Origin: an uncultured Prevotellaceae bacterium | GTDB lineage: Bacteria; Bacteroidota; Bacteroidia; Bacteroidales; Bacteroidaceae | Direction: 5' to 3' | DNA: 64,000 nucleotides | Assembly: GCA_900316315.1 (NCBI GenBank) | Contig: ONCK01000005.1 | Coordinates: forward strand, 186,001-250,000 | Shown: positions 5,781 through 57,570 of the stretch, piece by piece | Position numbering within the stretch: position 1 is the stretch's first letter | Layout of the letters: every line of letters starts with the position of its first letter | Program-made: the position numbers and the translations under genes | The notes under the pieces: generated by a model | What the model was told of the DNA's origin: nothing | Seen by the model: the letters and a program-made list of their open reading frames with translations, nothing else | The model's database searches: none

Positions 5781-5821
5781 ATCATATATATTATTTACCT
5801 TAAGACTTTGCGCCCGAGATA

Positions 5822-6376: not shown

Positions 6377-6381
6377 TGTAA

Positions 6382-7380: not shown

Positions 7381-7394
7381 GGATATATAATTAA

Positions 7395-8003: not shown

Positions 8004-8036
8004 TACTTTTTGATTTTAAGGGTTGATTAGAAATAC

Positions 8037-8426: not shown

Positions 8427-8440
8427 AGTGCTATCTCCTA

Positions 8441-8821: not shown

Positions 8822-8848
8822 ATAATGATTTGAATTGATTACTTTTGA

Positions 8849-8965: not shown

Positions 8966-8973
8966 ATCTAATG

Positions 8974-9192: not shown

Positions 9193-9196
9193 AATC

Positions 9197-9991: not shown

Positions 9992-9997
9992 GATATA

Positions 9998-11341: not shown

Positions 11342-11791
11342 TTACTGGATTTTGGTAGCTGTACCGCCTACAGCCTTGATTGCCTCTTCTGCTGTCTTAG
11401 AGAAAGCATTTGCCTCAACATCCAATTTGGAAGTCAAAGAGCCATTACCCAAGATCTTGACAAGCTGCCCCTTTCTGAGGAATCCTGCATCAAGCAGATC
11501 TTGCTTGGTAATCTTTTCCAGCTTCTTGGCGTCAGCAAGCACTTGCAGCACACCCAAGTTGATGGCCTTATACTCCACATGATTGATATTCTTGAAGCCG
11601 GATTTGGGCACACGACGCTGCAAAGGCATCTGACCACCTTCAAATCCAATCTTCTTCTTATAACCAGAACGAGCCTTAGCACCTTTGGTACCACGGGTAG
11701 AAGTACCACCAAGACCGGAGCCAGTACCACGACCAATTCTTCTACGAGTTTGGGTAGATCCTTCTGCAGGCTTCAAATTATATAGTTTCAT
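11342..11791 (-). CDS. rplO: 50S ribosomal protein L15
   Basis: Large-subunit assembly protein L15, 149 residues. The Gly/Arg-rich N-terminus (RRRIGRGTGSGLGGTSTRG) threads into 23S rRNA, followed by GFEGGQMPLQRRVPKSGF. It lies between rpmD (11 bases) and secY (0 bases). Confidence 0.98.
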   Translation of the reverse strand: MKLYNLKPAEGSTQTRRRIGRGTGSGLGGTSTRGTKGAKARSGYKKKIGFEGGQMPLQRRVPKSGFKNINHVEYKAINLGVLQVLADAKKLEKITKQDLLDAGFLRKGQLVKILGNGSLTSKLDVEANAFSKTAEEAIKAVGGTATKIQ

Positions 11792-11802
11792 CTTCGTAAT
11801 CT

Positions 11803-11979
11803 TTATTTTTCTACACGGACTAAGTGATGAACAGCCTTGATCATGCCTTGAGTACTTGCATTGTCTTCCTGCTCAACGACTCTATTTAGTTTCTTAAGTC
11901 CCAGTGCATCGAGTGTGCGCTTCTCATTCTTAGAGGCACCGATGCGACTCTTGATTTGACGAATCTTTATAGTTGCCAT
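11803..11979 (-). CDS. rpmD: 50S ribosomal protein L30
   Basis: A 58-residue protein read from ATG at 11977-11979 to TAA at 11803-11805. It begins MATIKIRQIKSRIGASKNEK and has RTLDALGLKKLNRVVEQED, the L30 signature. It lies 2 bases after rpsE and 11 before rplO, the expected position in the spc operon. Confidence 0.96.
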   Translation of the reverse strand: MATIKIRQIKSRIGASKNEKRTLDALGLKKLNRVVEQEDNASTQGMIKAVHHLVRVEK

Positions 11980-11981
11980 AA

Positions 11982-12488
11982 TTATCCATTAAAAACTTTA
12001 TCAAGACCGAGGTTACGATCTCTGCCTACCGTCAAGGGATCACGAAGCTGCAGGAGAGCAGCAATAGTAGCCTTGACAAGGTTGTGAGGATTGGATGAAC
12101 CTTTGGACTTAGCCAATACATCTGTTACACCTACACTCTCAAGCACAGGGCGCATAGCACCTCCTGCGACAACTCCGGTACCGGATGATGCCGGCAGCAG
12201 GATGACTTCGGCGCCGCCAAATCTTGCAGAGACCTCGTGAGGAATTGTACCCTTGAGGATAGAGACTCTGACCAGATTCTTCTTGGCAGATTCTACACCT
12301 TTGGCAATCGCAGCAGAAACTTCTCCCGCCTTACCGAGGCCATAGCCGATGACGCCCTTGCCATCACCTACTACTACGATAGCAGCGAAGGTAAAAGTTC
12401 TACCTCCCTTGGTTACTTTAACTACGCGATTAAGAGCAACCAGTTTATCAGTAAGCTCTTCAGCATTTGCACTTATTCTGTTTGCCAT
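11982..12488 (-). CDS. rpsE: 30S ribosomal protein S5
   Basis: S5, 168 residues, acts in decoding fidelity and mRNA entry. It contains the N-terminal double-stranded-RNA-binding fold ([19 protein letters not shown]) and the C-terminal half with [19 protein letters not shown]. Gaps of 6 and 2 bases to rplR and rpmD. Confidence 0.98.
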
Positions 12489-12494
12489 AATCCT

Positions 12495-12839
12495 TTAAAA
12501 TTTTAGTCCGCCTTTACGGGCGCCATTAGCCAATTCCATTACTCGACCGTGATAGAGATAGCCGTTGCGGTCAAAAACTACTTTGGTGATACCTGCTTCG
12601 AGGGCGGCCTTTGCTATCTTCTCACCGACTTTAGCAGCCTGTTCTGATTTATTCATCTTCTCCATGCCCAGAGATGAAGCAGCTGCGAGAGTCGTAGCGG
12701 TCTCATCATTGATGATCTGGGCATATATCTGCTTGTTGCTTCTGAACACGCTCATACGAGGCTTCTCGGCAGTACCAGATATTTTATTTCTAACGCGATG
12801 CTTAATCTTAAGCCTTCTATTTATCTTGTTAGTTGTCAT
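12495..12839 (-). CDS. rplR: 50S ribosomal protein L18
   Basis: 5S rRNA-binding protein L18, 114 residues from the ATG at 12837-12839 ([17 protein letters not shown]). A TTG two codons upstream could also start, but the ATG matches family starts. Conserved content: [20 protein letters not shown] and [14 protein letters not shown]. It lies 12 bases after rplF. Confidence 0.97.
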
Positions 12840-12851
12840 AGTCAAAAATTA

Positions 12852-13421
12852 TTATTTAGCTGCAGCGGTCTTACCAGACTTGCGACGAATGACTTCTCCG
12901 ACATAGAGGATACCCTTGCCCTTGTAAGGCTCCGGCATTCTGAATGAGCGAATCTTTGCACAAACGAGTCCCAGAAGTTGCTTGTCACAGGACTCAAGGC
13001 AGATGTACGGGCGCTTGTTGCGCTCCGACTTCGTTTCGACTTTAATCTGCGGGGGCAGTTGAAGATAAATAGGATGAGTGTAACCGAGAGTAAACTCTAT
13101 AAGATTACCCTGGTTGGATACCCTATAACCTACGCCGACGAGCTCCATCTCTTTTTTGAAGCCCTCGGATACTCCGACTACCATATTATTGACAAGCGCA
13201 CGATATAGGCCATGAAAAGCCTGCTTCTGCTTCGGGTCTACACCCTCGTACTTCTCGTCAATGTCAAAGGTCAACTTGCCTTCGCTCATGGTAATCTTAA
13301 TAGAAGGATGCACTGCTTGGCTCAATTCACCCTTTGGTCCTTTTACGGACACTACATTATCCTTCAGGTCAACTGTGACACCTGCAGGGATGTTAATCGG
13401 CAATTTACCTATTCTAGACAT
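12852..13421 (-). CDS. rplF: 50S ribosomal protein L6
   Basis: L6, 189 residues, near the sarcin-ricin loop. Two similar domains are present: the first starts SRIGKLPINIPAGV, the second holds GVGYRVSNQGNLIEFTLGY. The C-terminal signature reads PEPYKGKGILYVGE. It follows rpsH by 18 bases. Confidence 0.98.
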   Translation of the reverse strand: MSRIGKLPINIPAGVTVDLKDNVVSVKGPKGELSQAVHPSIKITMSEGKLTFDIDEKYEGVDPKQKQAFHGLYRALVNNMVVGVSEGFKKEMELVGVGYRVSNQGNLIEFTLGYTHPIYLQLPPQIKVETKSERNKRPYICLESCDKQLLGLVCAKIRSFRMPEPYKGKGILYVGEVIRRKSGKTAAAK

Positions 13422-13439
13422 GCGTTTACTTCCTTAAAA

Positions 13440-13835
13440 TCAATAAATGTAACACAATACTTCTCCGCCGATTTTCTCAGCTGCGGCCTCCTTGTCGGTC
13501 ATGACGCCATGAGAAGTTGAAATGATTGCGATACCCAAGCCATTGATAACTCTCGGCATCTTCTTGTAACCTGTATAACAACGCAGACCTGGAGTCGAGA
13601 CTCTCTTCAGTGACTTAATGGCTGAAGATTTGTCTTCATTGTTATACTTCAGGGCAATCTTGATGATACCCTGACGACCATCATCCTCAAACTTGTAGTT
13701 CAGGATATAGCCCTTCTGGAAAAGGATCTTGGTAATGTCCTTCTTCAGGTTTGACGCAGGAATCTCGACCACACGGTGCTTAGCCTGAATGGCATTCCTG
13801 AGTCTTGTCAAATAGTCAGAAATTGGATCTGTCAT
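13440..13835 (-). CDS. rpsH: 30S ribosomal protein S8
   Basis: S8, 131 residues, binds the central domain of 16S rRNA and in many bacteria represses the spc operon. It starts [20 protein letters not shown] and ends with [19 protein letters not shown]. It lies 71 bases after rpsN, the longest gap inside the spc part, with no clear regulatory structure seen. Confidence 0.98.
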
Positions 13836-13906
13836 TATAAAAGTAATTTAATTGATCGGGAGAACCCGACAATATTAAAATTAGAAAACTCTTTTCTTTC
13901 TTGTTC

Positions 13907-14209
13907 CTACCAGCTAGCCTTCTTTACGCCAGGGATCAGACCGTTGGAAGCCATCTCACGGAATTGGATACGAGAGAGGCCAAACTGACGGATATAGCCC
14001 TTGGGTCTACCTGTGATCTTGCAACGATTGTGTAGACGGATAGGATTGGCGTTGCGAGGGATCTTTTGCAGCTTGCGAGCAGCTTCATATGCTTCGGCAG
14101 GATCGTTGGATTTGTTGACAATAGCCTTGAGAGCAGCACGCTTCTCAGCATATTTGGCTACAAGTCTGGCGCGCTTTACCTCACGGGCCTTCATTGATTC
14201 TTTTGCCAT
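13907..14209 (-). CDS. rpsN: 30S ribosomal protein S14 (zinc-free form)
   Basis: S14, 100 residues: the longer C-minus type that lacks the CxxC pairs of the short zinc form. It has [20 protein letters not shown] and ends [12 protein letters not shown]. It lies 5 bases after rplE. Together with the C-minus L36 it gives a low zinc demand for these positions. Confidence 0.97.
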
Positions 14210-14214
14210 ATCAC

Positions 14215-14772
14215 TTATTTATTTTTATCATTGTTGAATGGGAGGCCGAAAGCCTTGAGCAAGGCGAAGCCTTCGTCATCTGTACGGGCAGAAGTGACAA
14301 AAGTAATGTTCATACCCTGGATACGCTCGACAGAGTCGATATTAATCTCAGGAAATATGATCTGCTCCTGAATACCCAGTGTATAGTTGCCACGTCCGTC
14401 GAAGTTACCTCCAATACCCTTGAAGTCACGGATACGGGGCAGAGCTACGCGTACCAATTTCTCGAGAAACTCGTACATGCGCTCTCTACGCAGTGTCACG
14501 CGGACTCCGATAGGCATCTTCTTACGAAGTTTGAAGTTAGCGACGTCCTTCTTGGAGACAGTAGCTACAGCCTTTTGGCCGGCGATTGCGGTGATCTCGT
14601 TGATTGCAACATCGATGATCTTCTTATCCTGGGTAGCAGCGCCCAAGCCTTGGTTGATAACGATTTTCTTGAGTACAGGTATCTGCATGGGTGAGGAGTA
14701 GTTAAACTCCTTCATCAACTCGGGAGCAATCTGCTCCTTGTACACTTGCTTTAGTTGTGCTGTATTTGCCAT
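14215..14772 (-). CDS. rplE: 50S ribosomal protein L5
   Basis: L5, 185 residues, binds 5S rRNA and forms a bridge with S13. It contains [18 protein letters not shown] and [18 protein letters not shown]. Its start codon overlaps the rplX stop by one base (TAATG), which implies coupled translation. Confidence 0.98.
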
Positions 14773-15092
14773 TACTTAATCACCTCCCCTGATTTCTTGG
14801 AATAACGTACAAGCTTACCATTTTCATCACGCTTGCGCCCGATACGAGTAGGCTTGCCTGTCTTGGGATCAACTACATTAAGATTGGAGATATGGATAGG
14901 AGCTTCCTGCTTCTGGATACCTCCCTGCGGATGCTTGGCATCGGGCTTAGTGCTCTTGGAGACCATATTGACGCCCTCCACGATAGCACGCTGCTTATCC
15001 ACATAAACCTTGAGGACTTTGCCTTTGGCGCCTCTGTTTACTCCTGTATTAACAAAGACTGTATCGCCTTTTTTAATATGTAACTTACTCAT
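14772..15092 (-). CDS. rplX: 50S ribosomal protein L24
   Basis: L24, 106 residues, an early assembly protein. The KOW motif is near the N-terminus ([20 protein letters not shown]) and the C-terminal part has [19 protein letters not shown]. It overlaps rplE by one base and follows rplN by 17. Confidence 0.98.
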
Positions 15093-15109
15093 TAGGTTTC
15101 AATTAAAGA

Positions 15110-15475
15110 TTAAAGAACCTCAGGTGCCAGAGAGACGACCTTCATATTGACAGCGCGAAGCTCACGTGCTACAGGACCGAAGATACGACTACCTCTCAAC
15201 TCGTTGTCACCTGTCAAGAGTACGCATGCATTATCGTCAAAACGGATATAGGACCCGTCAGCACGACGTATTTCCTTCTTGGTGCGAACAATCAGGGCCT
15301 TGGATACGGCACCCTTCTTAATATCACTTGATGCAACTACATTTTGAACTGCTACAACGATGATATCGCCTACTGAGGCATAGCGTCTCTTTGTGCCGCC
15401 CAGGACACGAATGCAGAGGGCTTCACGCGCACCGCTATTATCAGCAACAGTCAATCTTGATAATGCTTGTATCAT
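15110..15475 (-). CDS. rplN: 50S ribosomal protein L14
   Basis: L14, 121 residues, sits at the subunit interface. It starts [20 protein letters not shown] and has [11 protein letters not shown] and [19 protein letters not shown], the full family signature. Gap of 2 bases after rpsQ. Confidence 0.98.
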
Positions 15476-15477
15476 AA

Positions 15478-15735
15478 TTACTTAGCTCTTTCAACGATTT
15501 CTACTACTCTCCAACGCTTTGTCTTGCTCAAGGGGCGGGTCTCCATCAACAATACGGTATCACCGACATTGCATTCGTTTTTCTCGTCATGAGCATGATA
15601 TTTCTTAGTCTTGGAGACGAACTTACCATATATAGGGTGCATATCCTTAAATTTGGAAGCGACTATGATAGTTTTGTCCATCTTAGTGCTGATGACGACA
15701 CCCTGACGCGTCTTACGTAAATTTCTTTCTTCCAT
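15478..15735 (-). CDS. rpsQ: 30S ribosomal protein S17
   Basis: S17, 85 residues, an OB-fold primary binder of 16S rRNA. It contains [19 protein letters not shown] and [18 protein letters not shown]. It lies between rpmC (6 bases) and rplN (2 bases). Confidence 0.98.
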
Positions 15736-15741
15736 GATTGA

Positions 15742-15936
15742 TTATTTGTTAAGTTCTCTCTGACGCAATATTGTCTTCATACGAGCGATATCTCGACGAC
15801 TTTCTCTAATCTTGGAAGGATTTGCAAGTGGGGAAACTGCGTGAGTCAACAGCATCTGGCCGTAGTTGGCAATTTCACTATTCAGTTTATCCTGCAATTC
15901 GTTTGTAGGGATATTTACTATATCTGCAACTTTCAT
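15742..15936 (-). CDS. rpmC: 50S ribosomal protein L29
   Basis: L29, 64 residues, a two-helix protein near the exit tunnel. It contains TNELQDKLNSEIANYGQML and ends with RESRRDIARMKTILRQRELN. It lies 2 bases after rplP. Confidence 0.97.
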   Translation of the reverse strand: MKVADIVNIPTNELQDKLNSEIANYGQMLLTHAVSPLANPSKIRESRRDIARMKTILRQRELNK

Positions 15937-15938
15937 AA

Positions 15939-16364
15939 TTAGGCGTTTTTATCATAATCGCGTCTTACGACAAACTTAGTATGTACCGGCAGTTTCTGAG
16001 CAGCCAGACGCAGCGCCTCTTTGGCTACATCGTAGGAAACTCCTTCTACTTCAAAGATTATACGACCAGGAGTAACAGGTACTACAAATCCTACGGGATC
16101 ACCTTTACCTTTACCCATACGTACGTCTGCAGGCTTTTTGGTAATGGGCTTGTCAGGGAATACCCTGCACCATACCTGGCCTTCACGCTGCATATATCGT
16201 GTCACGGCGACACGTGCTGCTTCGAGCTGACGGCTGTTAATCCATTCCGTATCAAGTGTCTTTATGCCGAAGCTGCCAAAAGACAGTTGATTACCGCGCT
16301 GGGCGTTGCCTTTGCTGCGTCCTTTCGCGGGTCTTCTCCATTTTGTTCTTTTAGGTTGTAACAT
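15939..16364 (-). CDS. rplP: 50S ribosomal protein L16
   Basis: L16, 141 residues, close to the peptidyl transferase centre and A-site tRNA. It starts [20 protein letters not shown] and has [20 protein letters not shown]. It follows rpsC by 15 bases. Confidence 0.98.
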
Positions 16365-16379
16365 CTTGCACTTTCACTT

Positions 16380-17120
16380 TTAACGGTTAACATTTCTACG
16401 ACGTCGGCCACCTCTGTCGCCTCTGCCACGAGGATTTCCTCCGAAGTTGCGAGCCTTGTCGTTCTGCTGCGTAAAGTTCGGAGCTAAGTCTTTCTTGCCA
16501 TAGATTTCGCCGCGGCAGATCCAGACCTTGATACCCAGAAGTCCCACCTTGGTGAGAGCCTCTGTCTGGCAATAGTCGATGTCTGCGCGGAATGTATGGA
16601 GAGGAGTTCTTCCTTCCTTATACATTTCCTTACGGGCCATTTCGGCGCCGTTGAGACGGCCAGCTATTTGGATCTTGATACCAGCGGCGCCGGCACGCAT
16701 TGTGTTGGCTACGGCCATTTTGATTGCACGGCGATAAGCTACCATACCTTCAATCTGACGGGCGATGCTCTTGCCGACAATCTGGGCATCGAGTTCAGGT
16801 CTTCTGACCTCGAAGATATTGATTTGGATATCCTTGTCGGTAATCTTTTTCAGCTCCTCTCTGAGCTTGTCTACTTCCTGGCCGCCCTTTCCGATGATGA
16901 CACCGGGATGAGAGGAGCAGATAGTAATCGTGATGAGCTTCAGAGTCCGCTCGATGACTATACGAGATACACTAGCCTTAGCGAGACGAGCTTCCAGATA
17001 CTTACGGATCTTGGTGTCTTCCAGCAGGGTGTCACCAAAGTTCTTTCCACCGTACCAGTTGGAGTCCCAACCTCTAATAATGCCTAAGCGGTTGCTTATT
17101 GGATTTATTTTCTGTCCCAT
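16380..17120 (-). CDS. rpsC: 30S ribosomal protein S3
   Basis: S3, 246 residues, at the mRNA entry channel. The KH domain shows [18 protein letters not shown] near residue 74, and the C-terminal domain has [20 protein letters not shown]. The C-terminal tail is rich in Gly, Arg and Asn ([18 protein letters not shown]), a common Bacteroidetes extension. It starts 3 bases after rplV. Confidence 0.98.
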
Positions 17121-17123
17121 ATA

Positions 17124-17564
17124 CTATTTCGTTTCTGATTGTTCCGTTTCAGATGCTGCATCAGAAACGTTGTCTTTATTAGAACCTACATACAATGTGA
17201 CATGGTTGGAGCGCTTACGGATGCGGTATCCACGTCCCTGGGGTGCGGGGCGCATTCTGTTAAGCGTAGAGCCACAGTCTACATATACTCTCTGTACAAA
17301 GAGTTCTCCATCCTCTGCCTTACGGTCATTCTTCTGCTCCCAGTTGGATATTGCGGAACGCAGAAGCTTCTCAACATCGGCAGAAGCAGCTTTCTTGGAA
17401 AACTTCAGGACACTCAGGGCGCGGCCTACTTCCATACCTCTCACAAGGTCTACGACGTAGCGCATCTTGCGGGGAGAGGAGGGGATATTTCGCAGGATAG
17501 CGAAAGATTCTCCCTTCAGGGCCTCTTTTCTTGCTTTAGCTGAATTTCTTTTTCTAGCTCCCAT
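17124..17564 (-). CDS. rplV: 50S ribosomal protein L22
   Basis: L22, 146 residues, lines the exit tunnel with its beta-hairpin ([19 protein letters not shown]). The core is about 110 residues. The remainder is an N-terminal addition and an acidic C-terminal tail ([18 protein letters not shown]). It lies between rpsS (24 bases) and rpsC (3 bases). Confidence 0.97.
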
Positions 17565-17588
17565 ATTTAATTTCTTATTATTCTAAAA

Positions 17589-17858
17589 TCATTTAGCCTT
17601 ATTGCCAGCATGACCGCCGAACTTACGAGTAGGAGCAAATTCACCTAACTTATGGCCTACCATGTTTTCAGTGACATAGACGGGGATAAACTTATTTCCG
17701 TTGTGCACTGCGATAGTGTGACCGACGAAATCAGGAGAGATCATACAGGCGCGGGACCAAGTCTTTACAACATTCTTTTTACCGCTTTCATTCATTGCAA
17801 GGATTTTCTTCTCCAATGATACTGCGATATAAGGACCTTTCTTTAATGAACGACTCAT
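17589..17858 (-). CDS. rpsS: 30S ribosomal protein S19
   Basis: S19, 89 residues, in the 30S head with S13. It begins [19 protein letters not shown] and contains [20 protein letters not shown] and [16 protein letters not shown]. Gap of 29 bases after rplB. Confidence 0.98.
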
Positions 17859-17887
17859 AATTCTTTGTTCAAATATTAACCTGATTG

Positions 17888-18715
17888 CTACTTCTGATTA
17901 CTTCTCTCAATAATGTACTTGTTGGACTGCTTCTTAGGACGACGAGTCTTGAGTCCCTTAGCATACAGGCCGGTACGTGAACGCGGGTGGCCACCCGACT
18001 GACGGCCTTCGCCACCACCCATTGGGTGATCTACAGGGTTCATGACGACACCTCTGTTGTGAGGTCTGCGGCCCATCCAGCGTGAGCGTCCTGCTTTACC
18101 GGAGCTCTCCAGAGCGTGATCGGAATTGCCGACGCTGCCGATAGTAGCTTTACAAGCGCTGAGTATCTTACGAGTTTCACCTGAAGGCAACTTTACGACG
18201 CAATAGTCACCCTCACGGGATGTAAGCTGCGCGAAGTTACCAGCAGAGCGAACGAGGATTGCACCCTGGCCGGGGCGGAGTTCCAAGTTGTGGATAATTG
18301 TACCCACGGGGATGTTTGCCAGGGGAAGTGCGTTTCCTACTTCCGGAGCAGCATCTGCACCAGACATCAGTGTTGTCCCGACTTCGAGGCCATTGGGAGC
18401 AATGATGTATCTCTTCTCACCATCAGCATAGTACAGGAGTGCGATGCGGGCCGAGCGGTTCGGGTCGTACTCGATTGTCTTTACGACGGCTGGGATTCCA
18501 TCTTTCTCTCTTCTGAAATCGATAAAACGGAATTTTCTCTTGTGGCCTCCGCCCATGTAACGCATGGAGCGGTGTCCGAGGTTGTTGCGACCACCTGTGG
18601 ACTTCTTGCCGTATACAAGAGACTTTTCTGGTACTGATGCAGTAAGTTCTTCGAAAGTACCAATAATTTTGTGTCTCTGACCTGGGGTTACAGGTCTAAA
18701 TTTCCGTACTGCCAT
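17888..18715 (-). CDS. rplB: 50S ribosomal protein L2
   Basis: L2, 275 residues, essential for subunit joining and peptidyl transfer. It contains [27 protein letters not shown] and the C-terminal [14 protein letters not shown], whose His is the conserved one near the catalytic centre. It lies 3 bases after rplW. Confidence 0.98.
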
Positions 18716-18718
18716 TGT

Positions 18719-19012
18719 TTATATATTGCTATAAAAATCTATAGTTTCATCTTCTGCCAATGTGACAATAGCCTTTTTAAAGGCGTTGGAGCGGCCCTTG
18801 AGCAGTGCATGCTTGGTATAGCGGGTCTTATCCTTGCCTGAGTAGTTCATTGTCGTCACTGACTTTACATTGACATTGTAGCGGCCTTCTACTTCGCTCT
18901 TGATTTGGAGCTTGTTGGCTTCAGGACGCACGATAAAGCCGAACTTGTTGTTCTGCTTATCGGTGACTGCTGTCATCTTCTCTGTGACCAGAGGCTTTAT
19001 GATAAAGTCCAT
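18719..19012 (-). CDS. rplW: 50S ribosomal protein L23
   Basis: L23, 97 residues, docking site for trigger factor and SRP at the tunnel exit. It contains IIKPLVTEKMTAVTDKQNNK and YNVNVKSVTTMNYSGK. It lies between rplD (10 bases) and rplB (3 bases). Confidence 0.97.
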   Translation of the reverse strand: MDFIIKPLVTEKMTAVTDKQNNKFGFIVRPEANKLQIKSEVEGRYNVNVKSVTTMNYSGKDKTRYTKHALLKGRSNAFKKAIVTLAEDETIDFYSNI

Positions 19013-19022
19013 TTCCTAGAGT

Positions 19023-19655
19023 TTACTTTGTTAAGATTTCGTTAATCTGCTCCAGTGCCTTTTCAGTCACCACCAGCGTGGCAGCATCCAAGACATTGTA
19101 CGTATTAAGCTGCGAAGCCGTTGTCAGCTTTGCACCTTTCACATTGCGAGCAGACAAAAATACGTTTTTATCTGCACCTGGCAAAACCAGAAGGGACTTT
19201 TTATCAGCTACTTTGAGGTTTTCCTCCAGCTGGATGAAGTCTTTGGTCTTGGGGGCATCGAAAGTGAAATCTTCGATTACCAAAATTGCGCCTTCTTCCT
19301 TAGCTTTGTAAGCGAGGGCAGACTTACGTGCGAGCTGCTTTACCTTCTTGTTGAGCTTAAAGCCGTAGTCGCGTGGAGTAGGACCAAATACACGTCCGCC
19401 GCCCACCAGCACAGGAGAGTTGATATCACCTCTACGGGCGCCGCCGCCACCTTTCTGGCGACCGAGTTTGCGGGTAGAGCCGCTGATTTCACTTCTTTCC
19501 TTGGTCTTAGCCGTACCTTGACGCTGATTGGCCAGATACTGCTTTACATCGAGGTAGATGGCGTGGTCGTTAGGTTCGATGCCGAAAATGGCTTCATTCA
19601 GCGTGACCTTCTTGCCAGTATCCTCACCTTTTCTGTTCAAAACACTAACTTCCAT
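19023..19655 (-). CDS. rplD: 50S ribosomal protein L4
   Basis: L4, 210 residues, forms the tunnel constriction with L22. The tunnel loop is visible as [20 protein letters not shown] followed by [19 protein letters not shown]. In enterobacteria L4 autoregulates this operon; no such leader is evident here. Its start overlaps the rplC stop by one base. Confidence 0.98.
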
Positions 19656-20272
19656 TACTCTTTAACTATTACGATTGAACCTTTGCAACCGGCTACAGAT
19701 CCCTTGACGAGCAGGAGATTGCTTTCCGGTATGACCTTTAAGACTTCGAGATTCTGCGTTGTTACGCGGTCGCAACCCATCTGGCCGCCCATACGCATCC
19801 CCTTAAACACTTTTGCAGGGTAAGAGCATGCACCGATAGATCCCGGTTTGCGGGCGCGGTCATCCTGACCGTGGGTTGACTGACCTACACCACCAAATCC
19901 GTGACGCTTTACTACGCCCTGGAATCCGTGGCCCTTGGATGTGCCGGTGATGTCGACATACTTCACATCGCTGAAGATGTCTACTGTCACGGTGTCACCC
20001 AGTTTCAGATCTTGCTTAAAACCATTGAACTCGGCCAAGTGCCTCTTAGGCGTTGTACCGGCCTTCTTGAAGTGACCTTTCTGCGGAGCAGTAGTGTTTT
20101 TTTCCTTCAATTCCTGGAAGCCGAGCTGGACAGCCTCATAGCCGTCTTTGTCTTGGCTCTTCACCTGAGTAACAACGCAAGGACCTGCTTCAATAACAGT
20201 GCATGGAACATTCTTTCCATCAGCACTGAAAACGGATGTCATTCCGATTTTTTTTCCTAATAATCCTGGCAT
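19655..20272 (-). CDS. rplC: 50S ribosomal protein L3
   Basis: L3, 205 residues, an assembly initiator near the peptidyl transferase centre. It begins [20 protein letters not shown] and has the internal loop with [20 protein letters not shown] and GRMGGQMG-like [12 protein letters not shown]. Gap of 24 bases after rpsJ. Confidence 0.98.
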
Positions 20273-20296
20273 TTCAGTTATAATTTATTTTTAGTA

Positions 20297-20602
20297 CTAT
20301 ACCTTAATCTCTACCTCTACGCCACAGGGCAACTCGAGCTTCATCAGCGAGTCTACAGTTTTGGCTGTAGAGCTGTAGATATCTATGAGACGCTTGTAGG
20401 AGCAGATCTCAAATTGTTCACGAGCCTTCTTGTTGACGAAGGTACTGCGGTTGACAGTAATGATACGCTTGTGTGTGGGCAGGGGGATGGGACCGCTTAC
20501 GATAGCGCCGGTTTCCTTTACTGCCTTTACGATCTTGTCGCTTGACTTCTCGACGAGCGTGTGATCGTAAGACTTCAGTTTGATTCTAATTTTTTGACTC
20601 AT
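20297..20602 (-). CDS. rpsJ: 30S ribosomal protein S10
   Basis: S10 (NusE), 101 residues, works in the 30S head and in transcription antitermination with NusB. It contains [20 protein letters not shown] and [18 protein letters not shown]. It follows fusA by 79 bases. No tuf gene lies between fusA and rpsJ, unlike enterobacteria. Confidence 0.98.
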
Positions 20603-20681
20603 TATGTGTGTTTAGGCGAGGAGGTTGCTGCTTAAGAGTCATTCGTTAAGCAGCACCTTTCCTCTGATTGATTATTTATCC

Positions 20682-22799
20682 TTATACCAAGTCTGTTCTA
20701 CCCTTCACTTCCTCAAGCACTGCCTTGGCAAGGCTCGAAGACAGAGGAGCGTGGTGATCATATTGCATAGAGGAGGTAGCGCGTCCGGAGGTGATGGTAC
20801 GCAGTGCGGTCACATAGCCAAACATTTCAGCCAGCGGTACCATAGCCTTGATGATACGTGCGCCGGAGCGGGAACTCTCCATGCCCTCTACCTGACCGCG
20901 GCGCTTGTTAAGGTCGCCGATAACATCACCCATGCTCTCTTCGGGCGTTACGACCTCGAGGCTCATGATAGGCTCGAGCAGTACGGGCTTTGCCTTGGCG
21001 CAGGCATTCTTGTATGCATTGATGGCGCAGACTTCAAATGACAGCTGATCAGAGTCTACCGGGTGGAAGGAGCCGTCGAGCAGCTCTACCTTGAGGCTGT
21101 CCATCGGATAGCCGCCCAGGACACCGCTCTTCATGGCATTTTCAAATCCCTTCTGTACGCTGGGGATAAACTCCTTGGGAATGTTACCGCCCGTCACCTT
21201 GTTGACAAACTGCAGGCCGCCTTCCTTGAAGTCCTCGTCTACTGGGCCGACGTTGACAATGATGTCTGCAAACTTACCGCGACCACCGGTCTGCTTCTTG
21301 TAGACCTCTCTGAGGTTGACAGTCTGCGTGATAGCTTCCTTGTAGTTGACCTGAGGCTTGCCCTGGTTGCACTCTACTTTGAACTCTCTCTTCAGACGGT
21401 CGATGATGATATCGAGGTGGAGCTCACCCATACCGGAGATGATGGTCTGGCCGCTCTGCTCGTCAGTATGTACCTGGAAGGTCGGGTCCTCCTCTGCGAG
21501 CTTCTGCAGTCCGAGAGAGAGCTTATCCATATCCTTCTGGGTCTTAGGCTCTACAGCGATACCGATGACGGGATCGGGGAAGTCCATAGACTCAAGTACG
21601 ATAGGATGATTCTCGTCGCAGAGGGTATCACCGGTATGGATATCCTTAAATCCGACTCCTGCGCCGATATCACCGGCATCGATGCTCTCCATTGGGATTT
21701 CCTGGTTGGAGTTCATCTGGAAGAGTCGGCTGATGCGCTCCTTCTTGCCGGAGCGGCTGTTGTAGATATAGCTTCCTGCAGTGATTTTACCGGAATATAC
21801 GCGGAAAAATACCAGACGGCCCATATAGGGATCAGTGGCAATCTTGAATGCGAGGGCGGCAGTAGGCTCATCCTCACCTGGTTTGCGGTCTTCCTCCTCA
21901 TGGGTCTCAGGGTTGGTACCGACGATATTGATGGTATCCAACGGAGAGGGCAGGAATGCGCAGGTATAGTCCAGCAGGGGCTGTACGCCTTTATTCTTGT
22001 AAGACGAGCCGAGCAGCATCGGGCAGAGGTCCATCGATACCGTACCCTTGCGGATGGCGGCGATGATCTCATCCTCCGTGATTGTGGAGGGATCATCCAG
22101 ATACTTCTCCATCAGGGCGTCGTCAAAGTTGGCTGCACTCTCCAGCATCTTGTCACGCCACTCCTCAGCCTGGCTCTGGAGCTCGGCGGGGATATCGTCG
22201 ACCTCATACTCAGCGCCCAGGGTCTCATCGTGCCACAGGATAGCTTTCATCTTGATCAGATCAACTACGCCCTTAAAGTTCTCCTCTGCACCAATAGGAA
22301 TCTGTATAACTACAGGATTGGCGCCCAGGATCTCCTTCATCTGGCGTACAGTCTCAAAGAAGTCAGCACCCGAGCGGTCCATCTTGTTGACATATCCGAT
22401 ACGGGGCACATTGTACTTGTCTGCCTGGCGCCATACGGTCTCCGACTGGGGCTGTACGCCGTCAGCGGCGCTGTATGTAGCGATAGCGCCGTCCAGCACA
22501 CGCAGGGAGCGCTCCACCTCGGCGGTGAAGTCTACGTGTCCCGGGGTATCAATCAGATTGATTTTGTATTCATTGCCATTCCATGTCCACTTGCAGGTGG
22601 TAGCTGCAGAGGTGATGGTGATACCACGCTCCTGCTCCTGCTCCATCCAGTCCATGGTAGCTGCACCGTCGTGTACCTCACCAATCTTGTGGGTTTTTCC
22701 GGTGTAGTAGAGTATACGCTCTGATGTCGTCGTCTTACCGGCATCGATATGGGCCATAATGCCGATATTTCGCGTCAAGTGCAAATCTTGCTTTGCCAT
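20682..22799 (-). CDS. fusA: Elongation factor G
   Basis: GTPase that drives ribosomal translocation; 705 residues. G1 is [15 protein letters not shown] (about residues 16-30), G3 is [11 protein letters not shown] and G4 is [10 protein letters not shown]. Domains II-V follow, with domain IV starting near GGRGKFADI. It is the third gene of the str part, 31 bases after rpsG. A 553-codon open frame on the opposite strand (21063-22724) is only a shadow of its codon use. Confidence 0.98.
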
Positions 22800-22830
22800 T
22801 TTAGAGTCTTTCTGATTTAAGGTGTGTTAT

Positions 22831-23307
22831 TTAAAATCTGAAGTGAGCAAATGCACGGTTAGCCTCAGCCATACGATGCAGGTCTTCCTTACGCTTGTAA
22901 GCGCCGCCCTGCTCATGGTATGCGTCGAGTATTTCAGCAGCCAGCTTCTCAGCCATGCTCTTACCCGCACGCTTACGTGCAAAGTTGATCAGATTTTTCA
23001 TAGAGATAGAAGTCTTACGGTCGGGACGAATCTCCGTAGGTACCTGGAATGTTGCACCACCTATACGGCGGGATTTAACTTCTACCTGAGGAGTGATTTT
23101 GTCGAGAGCTTCCTTCCAGATATCCAGAGGCTCTTTGCCCTCGTCCTGTGTCTTGCCCTTTACGATATCGAGAGCGTCATAAAATATCTTGTAGGACACA
23201 CTCTTCTTGCCGTCATACATCAGATGATTGACAAACTTGGAAACCTTTTGGTCATTAAAGACGGGATCGGGCAGGATCACACGCTTCTTGGGTTTTGCTT
23301 TTCTCAT
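22831..23307 (-). CDS. rpsG: 30S ribosomal protein S7
   Basis: S7, 158 residues, organises the 30S head. It starts [20 protein letters not shown] and has [16 protein letters not shown] and the C-terminal region [10 protein letters not shown]. It lies 107 bases after rpsL and 31 before fusA. Confidence 0.98.
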
Positions 23308-28982: not shown

Positions 28983-31900
28983 TTATTTCATCACCTTACT
29001 GTATAACGTTTCCCACGAGTCGACAACACTATATTTTACATCACTGGCACCAATGCTTTGGAAATGCTTGGTTGCACAGGCAATCTTGGCTTTCTCCACA
29101 TCGCGTAAGTCAGCCTCTATGATGGAGCCTTTGGTCTCGGCAATAAAGTAGATATGCTTCACGCCACTGTCCTCCTTGAAGACCACCGCCCAGTCAGGAT
29201 TGTAATGACCTACTGGAGTGTTGATATAGAATCCGCGCGGTAGCTTGGTATAAACTTGTACCATATCCTCCCTTTCCAGTGCCTCGGCAAAATTCATCTC
29301 TCCTTTCGAGTCCACAACAACAAGGTCGTATAGGCTCTTCTTCGATTTCATCGCATTCTCACCAAGCTTGCCACGGAGTGTATTCTCGGTGAATACATCC
29401 TTATCATAGGTACCGTCCATCTTGTTGTACTCGATATGCTCGATGACCGACATGGCCTTACAGGAGTTGATGATGCGTGCCGACTTCATGATGAACTCCT
29501 CGGGGTTGAGCTGGAACTGGTGGAAGGTTTTAATGCCCTGAAGGATGGCGACAATGGTCTTGCGGGTCAGCCCCGTCTTGGAGACGAGCTGTCCGATGAG
29601 GTCATAGCGCACGCTGCCCACACCCTCATGTACCTGTACCGTGCGGTTCTTGCCCTGCTTCATGGCGGTACCTTCCTCAAGTTGCTGTTTGCTCTCAATC
29701 TTCTCAAGGCTGCCTGTACTGATGACTACTTTAATCTCGGTTACATTCAACTTGTCGAGTTGCCTGATTGCCTTGTCGATAAGTTTCTGCGAGTCGAAAT
29801 GCACCGTGTAGTAGCTATGAATGTTGATTTCCTTCCACAAGCCCAGGAACTCGTCCTTGAACTTCTGCTCGTTGAAGTGTCCTTCCACGGTGCCGCGGCC
29901 ATTGGCCGGTTTGGCTTTCTTCGGGTCGAACACGCCATCAAGCTGGTTGACAATGACGTCTTTTATCTTGTCCAACTCTCCGAAATTGAGTTGGTTTCTG
30001 TCCTTGTCGACATAGTATTTTTCGGTCAACCTGCCACGATGGATGTAGCCTTGTCCGATAAGCATCTCTTGGATGTCGTCGGCAACGTCATCGGTGATAA
30101 TTTGGTCCGTACCATCCTCTGTTGTATATATTACACCGACGAACAGGTCTTCTGTCACCTTCAAAGGACGGTCGGCACATGCGTCGGCAATCTCATGCTG
30201 TAGGTCCTCGGCAAAACTCTCATAGCTCTCACTCGCTATGACAGTGAGGATATTGGTGTTGAACACGCCATCATCACCAAGCACATCGGCATCCTGACGG
30301 TCGCCGTGCTCGTTGACGCAAAGACGCATGCCACGACCCACCTCCTGCCGTTTCTTGTTCTCGTTGCCGCTCTCCTTCAGGGTGCAGATTTGGAAGACGT
30401 TGGGATTGTCCCAGCCCTCCTTCAACGCACTGTGAGAGAAGATAAACCTCACAGGTTCGTCAAGACTGAGCAATCTCTCCTTATCTTTCATAATTAAGTC
30501 ATAAGCGCTCTCATCATTGCTGTTGTCACTGCCACGCTCCATCTTCGGGTCCACCATGTGGCCTTTCTTATCCATCGAGAAATAACCTTGGTGGATGTTC
30601 TCTGCCGCATTCCGTGGGTCTTGCAGATAGCGCAGATAGGCGGTATCGGTCAGGTAAGGGATACATTCTTGTAGCACATGGGGGTATTCCTCCTCGAACA
30701 TCTTGGCAAACTTGCCCTTTGTCTCCTCACCGCCATACAGCCTGTAACTACTTACATGGTCGATGAAGAACAGCGACAGCACCTTGATGTGCTTGGGATA
30801 TAGCTGGCTCTCCCGCTCGATATGCTTGCGAATGGTCTCACGAATCTGGTTGCGGCGGATGACATCCTCTGTCGTCTTACCGATCATCTGTCCGGGCACT
30901 AATGTCACGCCATTGACAAAGTGAATAGTTTGCATTCGTCCATCAATATAGTCAATGACGAAGCCGTCGCGGTACTCCTCCAGTCCTCCACTCTGCTGAT
31001 AGAGGTCGAAACCGTCACTGACGACTTTCGACTGCTGAGCCACGGTACCGCTCTTGCGCATCACGTCGAAGTTGATGCGGGCCTGCGGATTACCAGTGGA
31101 GATGATGATCTGTTCGAGATAGACATAGCCGTTGGTGGCGGTAGTGCCTTTCTGCTCTACACCGACCACTTCAATTTTCTTCACCAAGTGCTTGTTATAG
31201 GCATCCATCGCATCGAGACGATACACCATGTTGGCGATGTCATCCTTGCGGTGGGTGGCACTGTAGAGGAGTTTGAAGAGAGGATTGAACAACTTCAAGC
31301 CCTTGCGCGTCTGGTTCGACTTGTTGGCACCGAGCACGCTCTGCGGCTCGTCGATGATCATGATGGGGTGCGTGGCGGCGAGGATGTCGATAGGGCGGCG
31401 CGAGCGGAACTCGTCACGGCGGGAGAAGATAATACGGGCGGCTGCATCTCCGGCACGGCCCTCTTTATTCTTGTCCTCGTTGAGCGAGGTGTTGAAGGCC
31501 TGCGTGTTGATAATCATCACGTGCATGCCGGCATCTGAGGCGAAAGAGTCTATCTTGGACAGTTGCTTGGAGTTGTAGACGAAGTACTGGATGCGCTTGC
31601 CGTATTCCTGGGCGAAATACTCGCTCATGCTTTCGAAACTGCTGAGCACACCCTCACGAATGGCGATACTCGGCACCACGACGATGAACTTCGTCCAGCC
31701 ATAGAGTTTGTTCAGCTCAAACATCGTCTTGATATAGGTGAACGTCTTGCCCGTTCCCGTCTCCATCTCGATGGTCAGCGTGCGGCCGTCGCCCTCCAAC
31801 TGATCGATGGGCTTTAGTCCGAACGAGGTCTGCACCCGCCGGATGTTGTCGCGCAAAGGCACGCCGGGCTCCAACGGTGCGTTGGCATAGCCCTCCAAGG

Positions 31901-32045
31901 CAATCATGCTCCGCTGGCCATTCTCGATGCCCTGGTCCACGAGGAAGTTGCTCGTCCCATCGTAGTGCGGCTGACCCGAGAAGCAGTCTGTAACAGCACG
32001 TGCAGCATCCTCTTGGAAGCGCTGGTGTTTATATTTGAGTTTCAT
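28983..32045 (-). CDS. res: Type III restriction enzyme, Res subunit
   Basis: Helicase-nuclease subunit that, with Mod, cuts DNA having unmethylated recognition sites; ATP driven. It is 1020 residues long. Walker A lies at about 94-101 (ETGTGKTF), the DEAD-like box at about 231-235 (IDEPQS), and later helicase motifs include LYSATHRKDD and EVGRGMRL. The C-terminal PD-(D/E)xK nuclease is visible as NPDWAVVF followed by FIAETKGS near residues 950-975. All core motifs appear intact. It follows mod by 51 bases, the standard mod-res order. If Mod is switched off by its frame break, Res should be inactive because it depends on Mod for recognition (family knowledge). Confidence 0.95.
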   Translation of the reverse strand: MKLKYKHQRFQEDAARAVTDCFSGQPHYDGTSNFLVDQGIENGQRSMIALEGYANAPLEPGVPLRDNIRRVQTSFGLKPIDQLEGDGRTLTIEMETGTGKTFTYIKTMFELNKLYGWTKFIVVVPSIAIREGVLSSFESMSEYFAQEYGKRIQYFVYNSKQLSKIDSFASDAGMHVMIINTQAFNTSLNEDKNKEGRAGDAAARIIFSRRDEFRSRRPIDILAATHPIMIIDEPQSVLGANKSNQTRKGLKLFNPLFKLLYSATHRKDDIANMVYRLDAMDAYNKHLVKKIEVVGVEQKGTTATNGYVYLEQIIISTGNPQARINFDVMRKSGTVAQQSKVVSDGFDLYQQSGGLEEYRDGFVIDYIDGRMQTIHFVNGVTLVPGQMIGKTTEDVIRRNQIRETIRKHIERESQLYPKHIKVLSLFFIDHVSSYRLYGGEETKGKFAKMFEEEYPHVLQECIPYLTDTAYLRYLQDPRNAAENIHQGYFSMDKKGHMVDPKMERGSDNSNDESAYDLIMKDKERLLSLDEPVRFIFSHSALKEGWDNPNVFQICTLKESGNENKKRQEVGRGMRLCVNEHGDRQDADVLGDDGVFNTNILTVIASESYESFAEDLQHEIADACADRPLKVTEDLFVGVIYTTEDGTDQIITDDVADDIQEMLIGQGYIHRGRLTEKYYVDKDRNQLNFGELDKIKDVIVNQLDGVFDPKKAKPANGRGTVEGHFNEQKFKDEFLGLWKEINIHSYYTVHFDSQKLIDKAIRQLDKLNVTEIKVVISTGSLEKIESKQQLEEGTAMKQGKNRTVQVHEGVGSVRYDLIGQLVSKTGLTRKTIVAILQGIKTFHQFQLNPEEFIMKSARIINSCKAMSVIEHIEYNKMDGTYDKDVFTENTLRGKLGENAMKSKKSLYDLVVVDSKGEMNFAEALEREDMVQVYTKLPRGFYINTPVGHYNPDWAVVFKEDSGVKHIYFIAETKGSIIEADLRDVEKAKIACATKHFQSIGASDVKYSVVDSWETLYSKVMK

Positions 32046-38012: not shown

Positions 38013-39194
38013 ATGAGATACTTCCTGGTAGTTGGCGAATCCAGCGGCGATGTCCACGCCTCGCGTCTGATGCAGGAGTTGCGCAAGCGCGACCCCGAGG
38101 CTGAGTTTTGCTTCTTCGGCGGAGACCAGATGAGTATCGTGGGCGGCACACGCCTGCGCCACTATCGCAGCGTCGCTTACATGGGTTTCATCCCCGTGCT
38201 GCTGCATCTGCCAGCCATCCTACAGGCGATGAAGGTGTGCCGGCGCTTCGTACTGCGCTGGCGGCCCGATGTCACCATCCTGGTAGACTATCCGGGATTT
38301 AATCTCGGCATGGCCAAGTTTGTCCATCGCAACACTGACATCCCCGTCTACTACTACATCCTCCCCAAGGTATGGGCGTGGAAGGAAGGGCGCGTCCGCC
38401 AACTCCGCAAGTATGTCGACGAACGCTTCTCCATACTGCCCTTTGAGGTCCCGTTTTTTGAGAAGAAGCACCATTGTCCCATTCACTACGTGGGCAATCC
38501 GTCGGCCGACGAGATCTATGCCTTCACAGAGCAGCATCCGCGGGATTTCCAGGCCTTCTGTCAACGCCATAGCCTCAACGAGCAACCCGTCATCGCTCTC
38601 CTCCCCGGCAGTCGCCGACAGGAGATCAAGGACAACTTCCGCCGCATGGTGCTAGCGGCCAAGTCCTTTGCTGAACGGGGATACCAGATCATCGTCGCAG
38701 CCGCTCAGGATATCCCCGATGCGATCTACAGTCACTATCTCCAGGGAACCGGCGTAGACATGAGGACCGACTGGTTTCACCTGCTGAGAGACGCCACACT
38801 ATCCATCCTCCAGCATGCGGAGGCCGCCCTCGTGACCTCCGGCACTGCGACGCTCGAAACTGCACTGCTCAAGGTACCTCAGGTCGTATGCTACTATGCA
38901 CCGCTGGGCCACCTTGTCCGCGCAATCAAGCCCCACTTCCTCCACGTCAAGTACATCAGTCTCGTCAACCTCATCCTGGACCGCGAGCTCGTGCCCGAAC
39001 TGATCGGCGACCAAGTCAATCCCCACCGTATGCAGGCCGAGCTAGAGCGCATGGTAGTGGGCGGCACGAGCCGCCAGACTGTGCTCGACGGCTACGACAG
39101 GATGATACAGCGTCTCGGAGCTCCGGGTGCCCCCCAGCGGGCAGCCTCCATCATGGTCGACCTGCTCAGAGAGCGCTCTACCCACAAGTATTAG
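38013..39194 (+). CDS. lpxB: Lipid-A-disaccharide synthase
   Basis: GT19 glycosyltransferase of 393 residues that joins UDP-diacylglucosamine and lipid X to form the lipid A disaccharide at the inner membrane. It shows VGESSGDVHASRLMQELRK, GGDQM, VAYMGFIPVL and LLPGSRRQEIKDNF. It confirms an LPS-bearing Gram-negative cell. Second gene of the surE operon. Confidence 0.96.
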   Translation: MRYFLVVGESSGDVHASRLMQELRKRDPEAEFCFFGGDQMSIVGGTRLRHYRSVAYMGFIPVLLHLPAILQAMKVCRRFVLRWRPDVTILVDYPGFNLGMAKFVHRNTDIPVYYYILPKVWAWKEGRVRQLRKYVDERFSILPFEVPFFEKKHHCPIHYVGNPSADEIYAFTEQHPRDFQAFCQRHSLNEQPVIALLPGSRRQEIKDNFRRMVLAAKSFAERGYQIIVAAAQDIPDAIYSHYLQGTGVDMRTDWFHLLRDATLSILQHAEAALVTSGTATLETALLKVPQVVCYYAPLGHLVRAIKPHFLHVKYISLVNLILDRELVPELIGDQVNPHRMQAELERMVVGGTSRQTVLDGYDRMIQRLGAPGAPQRAASIMVDLLRERSTHKY

Positions 39195-39316
39195 TCCGCC
39201 TCTTCTCCCCTTTCCACACCCTCTCGCCGGCGTCTGCATACAGTCTGTCGCCCATGGAGCAGCGGCACAGTCCATCAACCTTTTTGCAGCATCCCATTTT
39301 CTCCATCTCATCGTCG

Positions 39317-39705
39317 TTTTTTCATATAATAAATTCGAGATACCGCCTCGAATAGGTGCCGATGTAGAGAGAAGAAGTCGCCTTGTAAGTGCGACAAGGT
39401 CGGATGTAGTTTAAACTAGGCCGGACTTTGTTTAAACTGGAAGGCGAGTTGTTATCGCCTGACAGCCAGCCAGTTACAAGAAAATCAAATTTTATTTATA
39501 ATTCATTGGCTCTTAATAAGTTACAAAGGCATTTTCGGCCAAATGCGCCCTTTTACTCTTTTGAATGGAAGAGAGAAGGAGACGCGAAAGTTTTATTATA
39601 AAATTATTTTATCCCATCGGTCTTTGGACAAAGCAGGCAGCCCACATTGACAGGTCTATCTCTCGCGGCAAGCCCTCTGATGGAGAAGCGTCAGCTCGCC
39701 GCGTG
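39317..39705. repeat. Dispersed intergenic repeat, copy 1
   Basis: The core 39317-39524 aligns closely with 57198-57403; weaker similarity goes on to about 39705 (for example CCCACATTGA and the following GTCT). It holds AGTTTAAACT (39408-39417) and GTTTAAAC (39430-39437), 21 bp apart, and the hairpin CCTTGT/ACAAGG just before them. No conserved reading frame was found. The 88-codon frame at 39565-39831 is not kept in the other copy. Confidence 0.85.
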
Positions 39706-39986
39706 ATAACAATCCCGTCCGTCTCGCTCCGCTTGAGTGGCCGCCCCCAAGAGGTCTGTTTCGAACAAATGTCTGCCAGTCGGCCGCAGAAGCAGCGGGG
39801 GAACTGTTGGCTGACTTTGAGCAGACCATGAAGGAGATTTTTTGTTTCTCCCTAATTTCCCGCTAGCTACTCCTGGCTCACCCACAAGCTCAGCCGATGA
39901 CGATATCGCCGGACGTGTCGGTCAAATACAGTAATCAAATATTGGTATTTTGCAGACTTAGAGGCTAGAGAGTGAGGATTTAATCG

Positions 39987-44798: not shown

Positions 44799-45752
44799 AT
44801 GGAAGCACATCATCATCACCCTATCCATGTCCAGTCCGCCAAAATGGGAAAAATACTGGGCTGGTCGATACTGCTCAATCTCCTCTTCGTACTCGTAGAG
44901 GCCGGCGTCGGATTTAGCCAAGGATCACTCTCACTGCTGAGCGACGCTGGGCACAATCTGAGCGACGTCTTCAGTCTCATACTCGTCGCCGTCGGATTCA
45001 GACTGAGCAAGTTGCACGCTAATGCCCGCTTCACCTACGGCTATCGTAAGAGCACGATACTTATCTCTCTGCTCAATGCCATCATCCTGCTCCTGGCCGT
45101 GGGAGGCATCATCATCGAAGCCATCCACAAGTTCTCCCATCCTATGCCGGTCAACGGAGCGGCCGTGGGATGGACCGCGTTTGTGGGCATCATCGTCAAC
45201 GGAGCGACTACGCTCCTGCTCATGCGGCGGCAAAAAGGAGATCTCAACGTCAGGGGCGCATTTCTTCACATGGCGGCCGACACACTCGTGAGCGTCGGCG
45301 TCGTCATCTCGGGTGTCATCATAGCCTGCACGGGAGTCTACGTGATAGACCCCTTCATCAGTCTGTGTATCGCCCTTATCATTCTCATCTCTACTTGGCG
45401 ACTACTGTCCAGTTCCCTGCGGCTGTCACTCGACGGCACACCTGAGGGCATCAGCCTCAGCCAGGTAGACGAGGCCATCAGAGAAACGCCTCACGTGAAG
45501 AGCTTTCACCATGTACACGTCTGGGCCATGAGCACGACAAGCAACGCCCTGACCGCTCATATCGTCATCGACAGCCTCGACCATATGGAGGAGACTAAGC
45601 ACGCTCTCAAACACAAGCTCGCAGAAATGGGCATCACTCACACCACCCTCGAGATGGAGACGACGGCCTGCCATTGCCAGGAGCACGACTGTGACTGTCA
45701 GGATCCGGATCGTGACTGTCAAGATCCAGACTGCCTCTGTCACCATAGCTGA
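44799..45752 (+). CDS. Cation diffusion facilitator, zinc-type exporter
   Basis: Inner-membrane metal/proton antiporter of 317 residues with six predicted helices. Metal-site residues are in LLSDAGHNLSDVFSL (TM2) and HMAADTLVSVGV (TM5); the two His-Asp pairs point to Zn(II), perhaps Co or Cd. A cytoplasmic domain follows (HVKSFHHVHVWAM). Both ends are metal-binding: MEAHHHHPIHVQ at the start and CHCQEHDCDCQDPDRDCQDP, then DCLCHHS, at the end. The tail is built from an imperfect repeat also visible in the DNA (GACTGTCAGGATCC / GACTGTCAAGATCC). It has its own promoter and follows the Fur-type gene. Confidence 0.93.
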   Translation: MEAHHHHPIHVQSAKMGKILGWSILLNLLFVLVEAGVGFSQGSLSLLSDAGHNLSDVFSLILVAVGFRLSKLHANARFTYGYRKSTILISLLNAIILLLAVGGIIIEAIHKFSHPMPVNGAAVGWTAFVGIIVNGATTLLLMRRQKGDLNVRGAFLHMAADTLVSVGVVISGVIIACTGVYVIDPFISLCIALIILISTWRLLSSSLRLSLDGTPEGISLSQVDEAIRETPHVKSFHHVHVWAMSTTSNALTAHIVIDSLDHMEETKHALKHKLAEMGITHTTLEMETTACHCQEHDCDCQDPDRDCQDPDCLCHHS

Positions 45753-45917
45753 AAGGCATGACGTCAGATCGCCCGCGGCCCCGTCTTACCCTCGTGGCGT
45801 CAGCGTGACATAACGGTGAGCTTCTATCGCCACCAACGCAAAGCGTTGCACACCCATGCTCGCTACTGGAGTGACGAAGTCAGAAAATGAGCTGGAGAAA
45901 AAAAAGAGTAAAAAATT

Positions 45918-56773: not shown

Positions 56774-56989
56774 CTCCTGAGTCACCGGGCCCCGGCGCTA
56801 TAGGCTCAGGAGCCTAAACCACGAGCTCGCAAGCTCCTCTGTAAGTAAACAGAGCACAATACTCTCTGTATTATATGCTTTGCGGCCTTCATAAGATCCG
56901 ACGTTATCTTCATAAGGTCCAATGTCCTTTTAATAAAATCCGAGATCCCCTTCATAAGGCCCGATGCTGTCCATTCAGCATCGGGCCTT
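56774..56989 (+). terminator. Hairpin cluster and terminator-like stem after rnr
   Basis: Several stems follow the rnr stop: CTCCTGAG/CTCAGGAG (56774-56812), GAGCT/AGCTC, CTCTGT/ACAGAG (56837-56854). Then come four degenerate 20-21-base units resembling CTTCATAAGGTCCGA (from 56887). A perfect 14-bp stem AAGGCCCGATGCTG/CAGCATCGGGCCTT closes the block (56956-56989), followed by ACTGTATTTA. The last stem is the best terminator candidate. Confidence 0.55.
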
Positions 56990-57197: not shown

Positions 57198-57570
57198 TTT
57201 TCATATAATAAATCCGAGATACTGCCTCATACAAGTGCAGATGTAGTGATGACAAATCGCCTTGTTCGCACAACAAGGTCGGATGTAGTTTAAACTAAGT
57301 CGGACTTAGTTTAAACTGGAAGGCGAGTTGTTATCGTCTGATAGCCAGTTAGTTGCGAGAAGACCAAATTTTATTTATAATTCATTGGATTTCAATGAGT
57401 TACGAGAGCGATTTTAGAAAGTTCCCATCTTTTTTTCTTCAGAGGCAAACGGGGACTCTCAATTCAATTTTTTATTATAAAAAAATAATGTCCCCTTAAG
57501 CCTCTGATGAAGCGGACGCCCACATTGATACGTCTGACTCTTGCGAAAGACCTTTGGTGACGCGTAAAAA
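57198..57570. repeat. Dispersed intergenic repeat, copy 2
   Basis: Same orientation as copy 1 at 39317. The core is 57198-57403. Two perfect AGTTTAAACT palindromes lie at 57287-57296 and 57308-57317, again 21 bp apart. The preceding hairpin is CCTTGTT/AACAAGG, one pair longer than in copy 1 and with a different loop. Weaker similarity continues to about 57570. Confidence 0.85.

Follow-up and report, generated by a model that had tools for sequence, protein, structure and literature searches.

Dispersed intergenic arrays of dyad-symmetric 21-bp units as a putative chromosome-wide set of architectural protein-binding sites in an uncultured Prevotellaceae bacterium

The window, by which we mean the whole analysed stretch of 64,000 nucleotides, contains two copies of an intergenic element in the same orientation (Table 1). 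Copy 1 lies in a gap of ~829 bp between lpxB and feoAB, and copy 2 in a gap of ~1340 bp between the RNase R gene and the gene of an AraC-type regulator. An initial annotation had described the two as a repeat pair (39317-39705 and 57198-57570) in large gene-free gaps, without a shared reading frame and with two GTTTAAAC palindromes spaced by 21 bp, and these points hold up well. A sequence-only profile model of the core (R1; 126 positions) recovers both cores (39357-39480, E 2.9e-35, and 57236-57359, E 1.1e-36), the first 208 bases of copy 1 match copy 2 at 84% (E 2.2e-60), and the palindromes start at 39409 and 39430 in copy 1 and at 57288 and 57309 in copy 2. All six frames of the core are stopped in most copies, and a coding reading was rejected on this ground. 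However, the paired palindromes turned out to be part of something larger, i.e., a periodic repeat whose unit is dyad-symmetric, and the conserved core with its weaker extension is embedded in faint similarity that reaches over ~690 bp (39180-39870).

The gap of copy 2 additionally holds, upstream of that copy, a different degenerate 21-bp array of four units (TTCATAAGRTCCRA...; 56888-56971, no strand assigned), which was picked up by a scan for 21-bp periodicity and lies directly before or overlaps a terminator-like hairpin. Periodicity of 21 bp at positions 45578-45781 of the window is mostly coding, with DCQDP-like residues repeated in the C-terminal end of an ORF. On the minus strand, 28983-32045 encodes a Type III restriction-like subunit with ResIII and RE_endonuc domains.

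Table 1. Coordinates of the element and its parts in the window.
Feature	Position	Strand	Basis
Copy 1, full shared extent, weak at ends	39180..39870	+	conservation profile, 30 copies
Copy 1, inner element between AT-rich palindromic blocks	39317..39612	+	conservation rise at 39317; alignments of 84 copies
Left AT block (TTTTTTCATATAATAAA)	39317..39333	.	mean identity 0.85
21-bp unit 1, TCGGATGTAGTTTAAACTAGG, dyad between TTT and AAA	39400..39420	.	
21-bp unit 2, CCGGACTTTGTTTAAACTGGA	39421..39441	.	
GTTTAAAC palindrome 1	39409..39416	.	
GTTTAAAC palindrome 2	39430..39437	.	
Right AT block, roughly inverted relative to left AT block	39590..39612	.	
Copy 2, inner element	57198..57490	+	
Copy 2, unit 1	57279..57299	.	
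Copy 2, unit 2	57300..57320	.	

In the alignment of 30 copies with wide flanks, identity along copy 1 is 0.40-0.50 at 39180-39310 and 39617-39870 and ~0.95 at 39397-39456 over a background of ~0.30, with a sharp jump at the left AT block. In the core, dyad-symmetric sequence (TCSGAYNTAG-TTTAAA-CTANRTCSGA) forms a lattice whose period is exactly 21 bp, and its two best units, TCGGATGTAGTTTAAACTAGG and TCGGACTTAGTTTAAACTGGA, are in register. Self-complementarity is centred between TTT and AAA and on the central base of TCSGA (scores of 0.75 and 0.82 vs a shuffled 95th percentile of 0.55), and because the profile is self-complementary the core model also matches the opposite strand (E 4e-8 to 6e-8). 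Since the period of 21 is odd, one dyad entails a second one 10.5 bp away, i.e., at a distance of one helical turn, so that symmetric points recur once per turn. By direct counting, 93 of 115 copies carry two in-phase units, 18 carry one and 3 carry three; an in-phase ACAAG is also present one unit upstream. The centre has four to five times fewer indels than most outside blocks (0.06-0.10 vs ~0.4-0.5 per copy and 21 bp), and the commonest long indel there measures exactly 21 bp (9 cases, losses of 21 bp included), a pattern that we read as spacing constraint.

The genome-wide search with the core that the initial annotation had called for was done on the 2.45-Mb genome of the window (31 contigs, 99% complete), where R1 finds ~113 copies at a score of at least 40 bits and 127 at a score of at least 28 bits; a DNA search gives at least 40. 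Both copies of the window are therefore real but only 2 of ~113, and the possibility that they alone exist as one segmental duplication is clearly gone with more than 110 copies found. Segmental duplication was also rejected on the gene arrangements, which differ among copies, and on the unrelated neighbours of the window pair. The elements occur in gaps between genes at a density of ~1 per 16 kb, and two contigs begin inside one. Among the 84 copies of at least 80 bits, with genes called by a simple longest-ORF rule, the 72 with clear neighbours are distributed over all arrangements (19 ++, 19 +-, 18 -- and 16 -+) in gaps with a median of 937 bp; six of the remaining strong copies overlap ORFs of 112-162 aa, which are probably spurious, and six lie at contig or stretch edges.

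Within contigs, the copies are spaced more evenly than at random (CV of 0.62 vs 0.92+-0.08 expected, p <0.001), and gaps of <7 kb between them make up 6% instead of the expected 29%. Placement relative to replication, another suggestion of the initial annotation, shows no polarity, i.e., no strand preference with respect to GC skew (55/115 copies), and similarity between copies has no link to their genomic distance within contigs. Copy quality does differ by contig (Kruskal p 7e-4; C28, C29, C11 and C3 vs C22, C16, C10 and C21, some with systematically weaker or variant copies), possibly as an effect of chromosomal position; regional GC is slightly lower in the contigs with weaker copies. One region (C17:169.5-225.3 kb) has no copies at a score of at least 28 bits and includes positions 4000-23000 of the window (minus strand), an AT-richer block with many small ORFs beside an elongation-factor gene (20682-22799) that is probably a ribosomal-protein cluster rather than a prophage.

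An element that regulates or terminates transcription of the adjacent genes would fit some relatives' arrays, which by eye lie directly behind terminator-like hairpins, but gene arrangement and orientation show no preference and the surroundings of copy 1 have about as many promoter- and terminator-like sites as shuffled sequence, so that we consider this improbable. A structured non-coding RNA, one of three options of the initial annotation, could draw on short inverted repeats such as CCTTGT...ACAAGG, but RNAalifold yields a consensus fold of -6.67 kcal/mol with a covariation term of -0.15 and no Rfam family is matched; the RNA reading was rejected on this weak fold, the near-zero covariation and the missing Rfam match and retains barely any probability.

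The ordered composite of AT block, distinct 21-bp units, tail and AT block recurs at >80 loci in both orientations, and one composite at so many places requires some past copying process. The element may therefore be an old non-autonomous MITE with an internal 21-bp minisatellite, similar to BrickBuilt, in which the core would serve for transposase recognition and even spacing would result from target immunity or the purging of close insertions. We take this second option of the initial annotation, with the core perhaps read by a lost or undescribed transposase, as a serious candidate of less than even probability. Apart from the copying itself, such an origin would suit the roughly inverted AT blocks, the variation from one to three units per copy, the dispersed composite array that the congener G011 has of its own at 15 matching places, and the equal plan of leader, repeat and tail described for BrickBuilt in the accessible part of PMC4596501. 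However, the target duplications that the initial annotation had suggested looking for left no signal at the assumed ends in the AT blocks, where the longest shared flank averages 3.44 vs 3.42 in shuffled controls (48 copies). No Y1 transposase and merely four short or weak DDE_Tnp_1 matches were found in the genome. The inner AT blocks, though roughly inverted, are each palindromic in themselves, and the outer ends of the element are gradual.

The age of the copies also bears on this question. Divergence between copies amounts to 40-58% in the flanks and ~16% in the core, and the closest pair already differs by 15% in the inner flanks (median to the nearest neighbour: 27%). Recent copies are absent, a figure that comes from an assembly of 31 contigs in which near-identical copies may have been lost at contig ends. 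The core diverges 0.41 times as much as the inner flank in the closest 2% of pairs, close to the factor of 0.39 across all pairs, which implies that the core is constrained on terminal branches too. Dead insertions would instead show equal rates in recent pairs, so that the pattern favours selection on the copies in place. The copies thus appear to have been dispersed first and then kept by selection. The main alternative to selection at each locus is gene conversion between copies, which could keep their centres alike.

With neither target duplications nor recent copies nor a relaxed core in close pairs, the balance tips towards docking arrays, i.e., our preferred reading that the element forms a chromosome-wide set of putative architectural protein-binding sites, which we give about an even chance. 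Symmetric, phased sites evenly spread over the chromosome are what such a set would consist of and what is found here, and support comes from context neutrality, two-turn phasing, dyads, even spacing and constraint. Protein binding, the first option of the initial annotation, fits these features best, and it is from them and the copy number that we infer a protein, its binding and an architectural role. Bound dimers would lie on one face of the helix at the dyad-symmetric half-sites TCSGA and TAG-TTTAAA-CTA, which recur every 21 bp in a lattice between two AT-rich palindromic blocks. A dimeric nucleoid-associated DNA-binding protein would assemble on each array, and the protein-loaded arrays would mark or organise the chromosome every ~10-25 kb irrespective of strand and of the direction of genes. 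The composite element would have spread long ago, with its core since held at each locus by selection, and related species would have kept the 21-bp lattice with differing unit sequences, as expected under fast co-evolution of protein and site. Target immunity of a transposon could explain the even spacing as well, and the two readings can be combined if a dispersed element was later retained as binding sites.

The distribution among relatives is patchy at the level of sequence. A DNA search finds no match to the element in congeners and the R1 profile gives only weak hits there, but other 21-bp arrays are present, e.g., one of ~17 in-phase units seen by inspection in G011. An autocorrelation scan of ORF-free stretches, based on small samples and heuristic ORF masking, puts lag 21 on top in the element's own genome (G000) and in G011, G010, G007, G001 and G005, and another lag in the sampled congeners G009, G017, G004 and G018. 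In a second genus, of which four members were sampled, lag 21 leads in three (G220, G233 and G048), and it also leads in the other family members G023 and G019, where the second harmonic is not clear; five pooled genomes serving as order-level controls show mainly codon-like lags, with 21 not on top. The motif CGGAYNTAGTT at 21-bp spacing (up to 2 mismatches) occurs 104 times in G000, 35 in G220, 24 in G010, 18 in G310, 13 in G233, 4 in G008 and 3 in G011, and 0-1 times in all other genomes (0-6 for a reversed-pattern control), and is thus patchily distributed within two genera. Matches of this type in Verrucomicrobia, cyanobacteria and Actinomycetota were not counted, as open frames run through their 21-bp (7-codon) repeats and they may be coding.

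The genes downstream of lpxB vary among congeners; G016 has a clear array behind lpxB, and G007 has a weaker one. In RGIG3537 (L115, L119 and L125), the units alternate with another palindrome, GTGACTTTAAAGTCAC, which keeps to the 21-bp phase. Because other species of the genus lack the element, any role of it must either be confined to this lineage or be filled there by different sequences; this counts against the preferred reading, as do the congeners in which lag 21 does not lead and the differences in copy quality among contigs. We tentatively suggest that at least two genera of rumen and gut Bacteroidaceae may share an undescribed chromosome-organising system of dyad-symmetric protein-binding lattices with an exact two-turn (21-bp) period, placed every 10-25 kb with satellite-like turnover of units and a preserved period; we rate this as possible rather than probable. 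To our knowledge, little is known about chromosome organisers of Bacteroidota. A two-turn lattice conserved at >110 context-neutral, evenly spaced sites would offer a direct way to the putative protein, with its consensus as bait. If the element is a mobile one, it would still be out of the ordinary, as it would combine an internal binding lattice with a preserved core and a lack of recent copies.

Among known systems, plasmid origins typically have iterons that follow each other at ~21 bp in helical phase with AT-rich DNA alongside, and the AT blocks flanking an iteron-like array could accordingly point to a replication or partition site (an iteron- or parS-like array) or to remnants of a plasmid or phage origin. 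Either is very unlikely given that the >110 copies are chromosomal, that the element shows no enrichment of DnaA boxes and that a DNA search yields zero matches in 72,556 plasmid and 50,697 phage records. No initiator gene lies next to either copy in the window, where the neighbours are LpxB, FeoAB, RNase R and the AraC-type regulator. A single motif match in IMG/VR lies in a stop-free frame of 83 aa and was discarded, as it looks like chance coding. The element thus shares ~21-bp direct repeats, helical phase and an AT-rich neighbour with plasmid iteron arrays but is scattered over the chromosome, and a plasmid relative was not found. The chromosome-organising site sets matS, Noc sites and parS likewise consist of many short sites that are dispersed and, within a set, read by one protein. 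By description these are single short sites, unlike the 21-bp lattice within 300 bp seen here.

REP/BIME elements with their RAYT likewise comprise >100 intergenic palindrome-containing copies, but they are short hairpins in alternating orientation rather than a 21-bp lattice in a ~300-bp composite; a REP/RAYT system was ruled out by the lack of any PF01797 (Y1) match in the genome, with five control genomes positive. For REP/BIME elements, the accessible part of PMC2817692 presents protein-binding roles as shown.

Among the open-access papers searched, and as far as their accessible text goes, only BrickBuilt of Porphyromonas gingivalis has a comparable plan. It is a dispersed, always intergenic composite with a 23-nt repeat of variable number, 19 copies and an IS5-type TIR, GAGACCTTTGCA (PMC4596501, accessible part). 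Our element shares with it the dispersed, intergenic placement, the order of a leader, short tandem repeats in phase and a tail, and the setting in a Bacteroidales genome. There is no clear IS5-like TIR in it, with 11 loose matches (up to 2 mismatches) in 74 copies, i.e., 0.18/kb vs 0.10 in the flanks. The repeat measures 21 instead of 23 nt, there are ~113 instead of 19 copies, and neither a dyad lattice nor even spacing is reported in the accessible part of PMC4596501. Compared with BrickBuilt as described there, what is new is the dyad lattice with its period of 21 bp, the number of copies, their even distribution and the fact that relatives repeat this period with units of their own.
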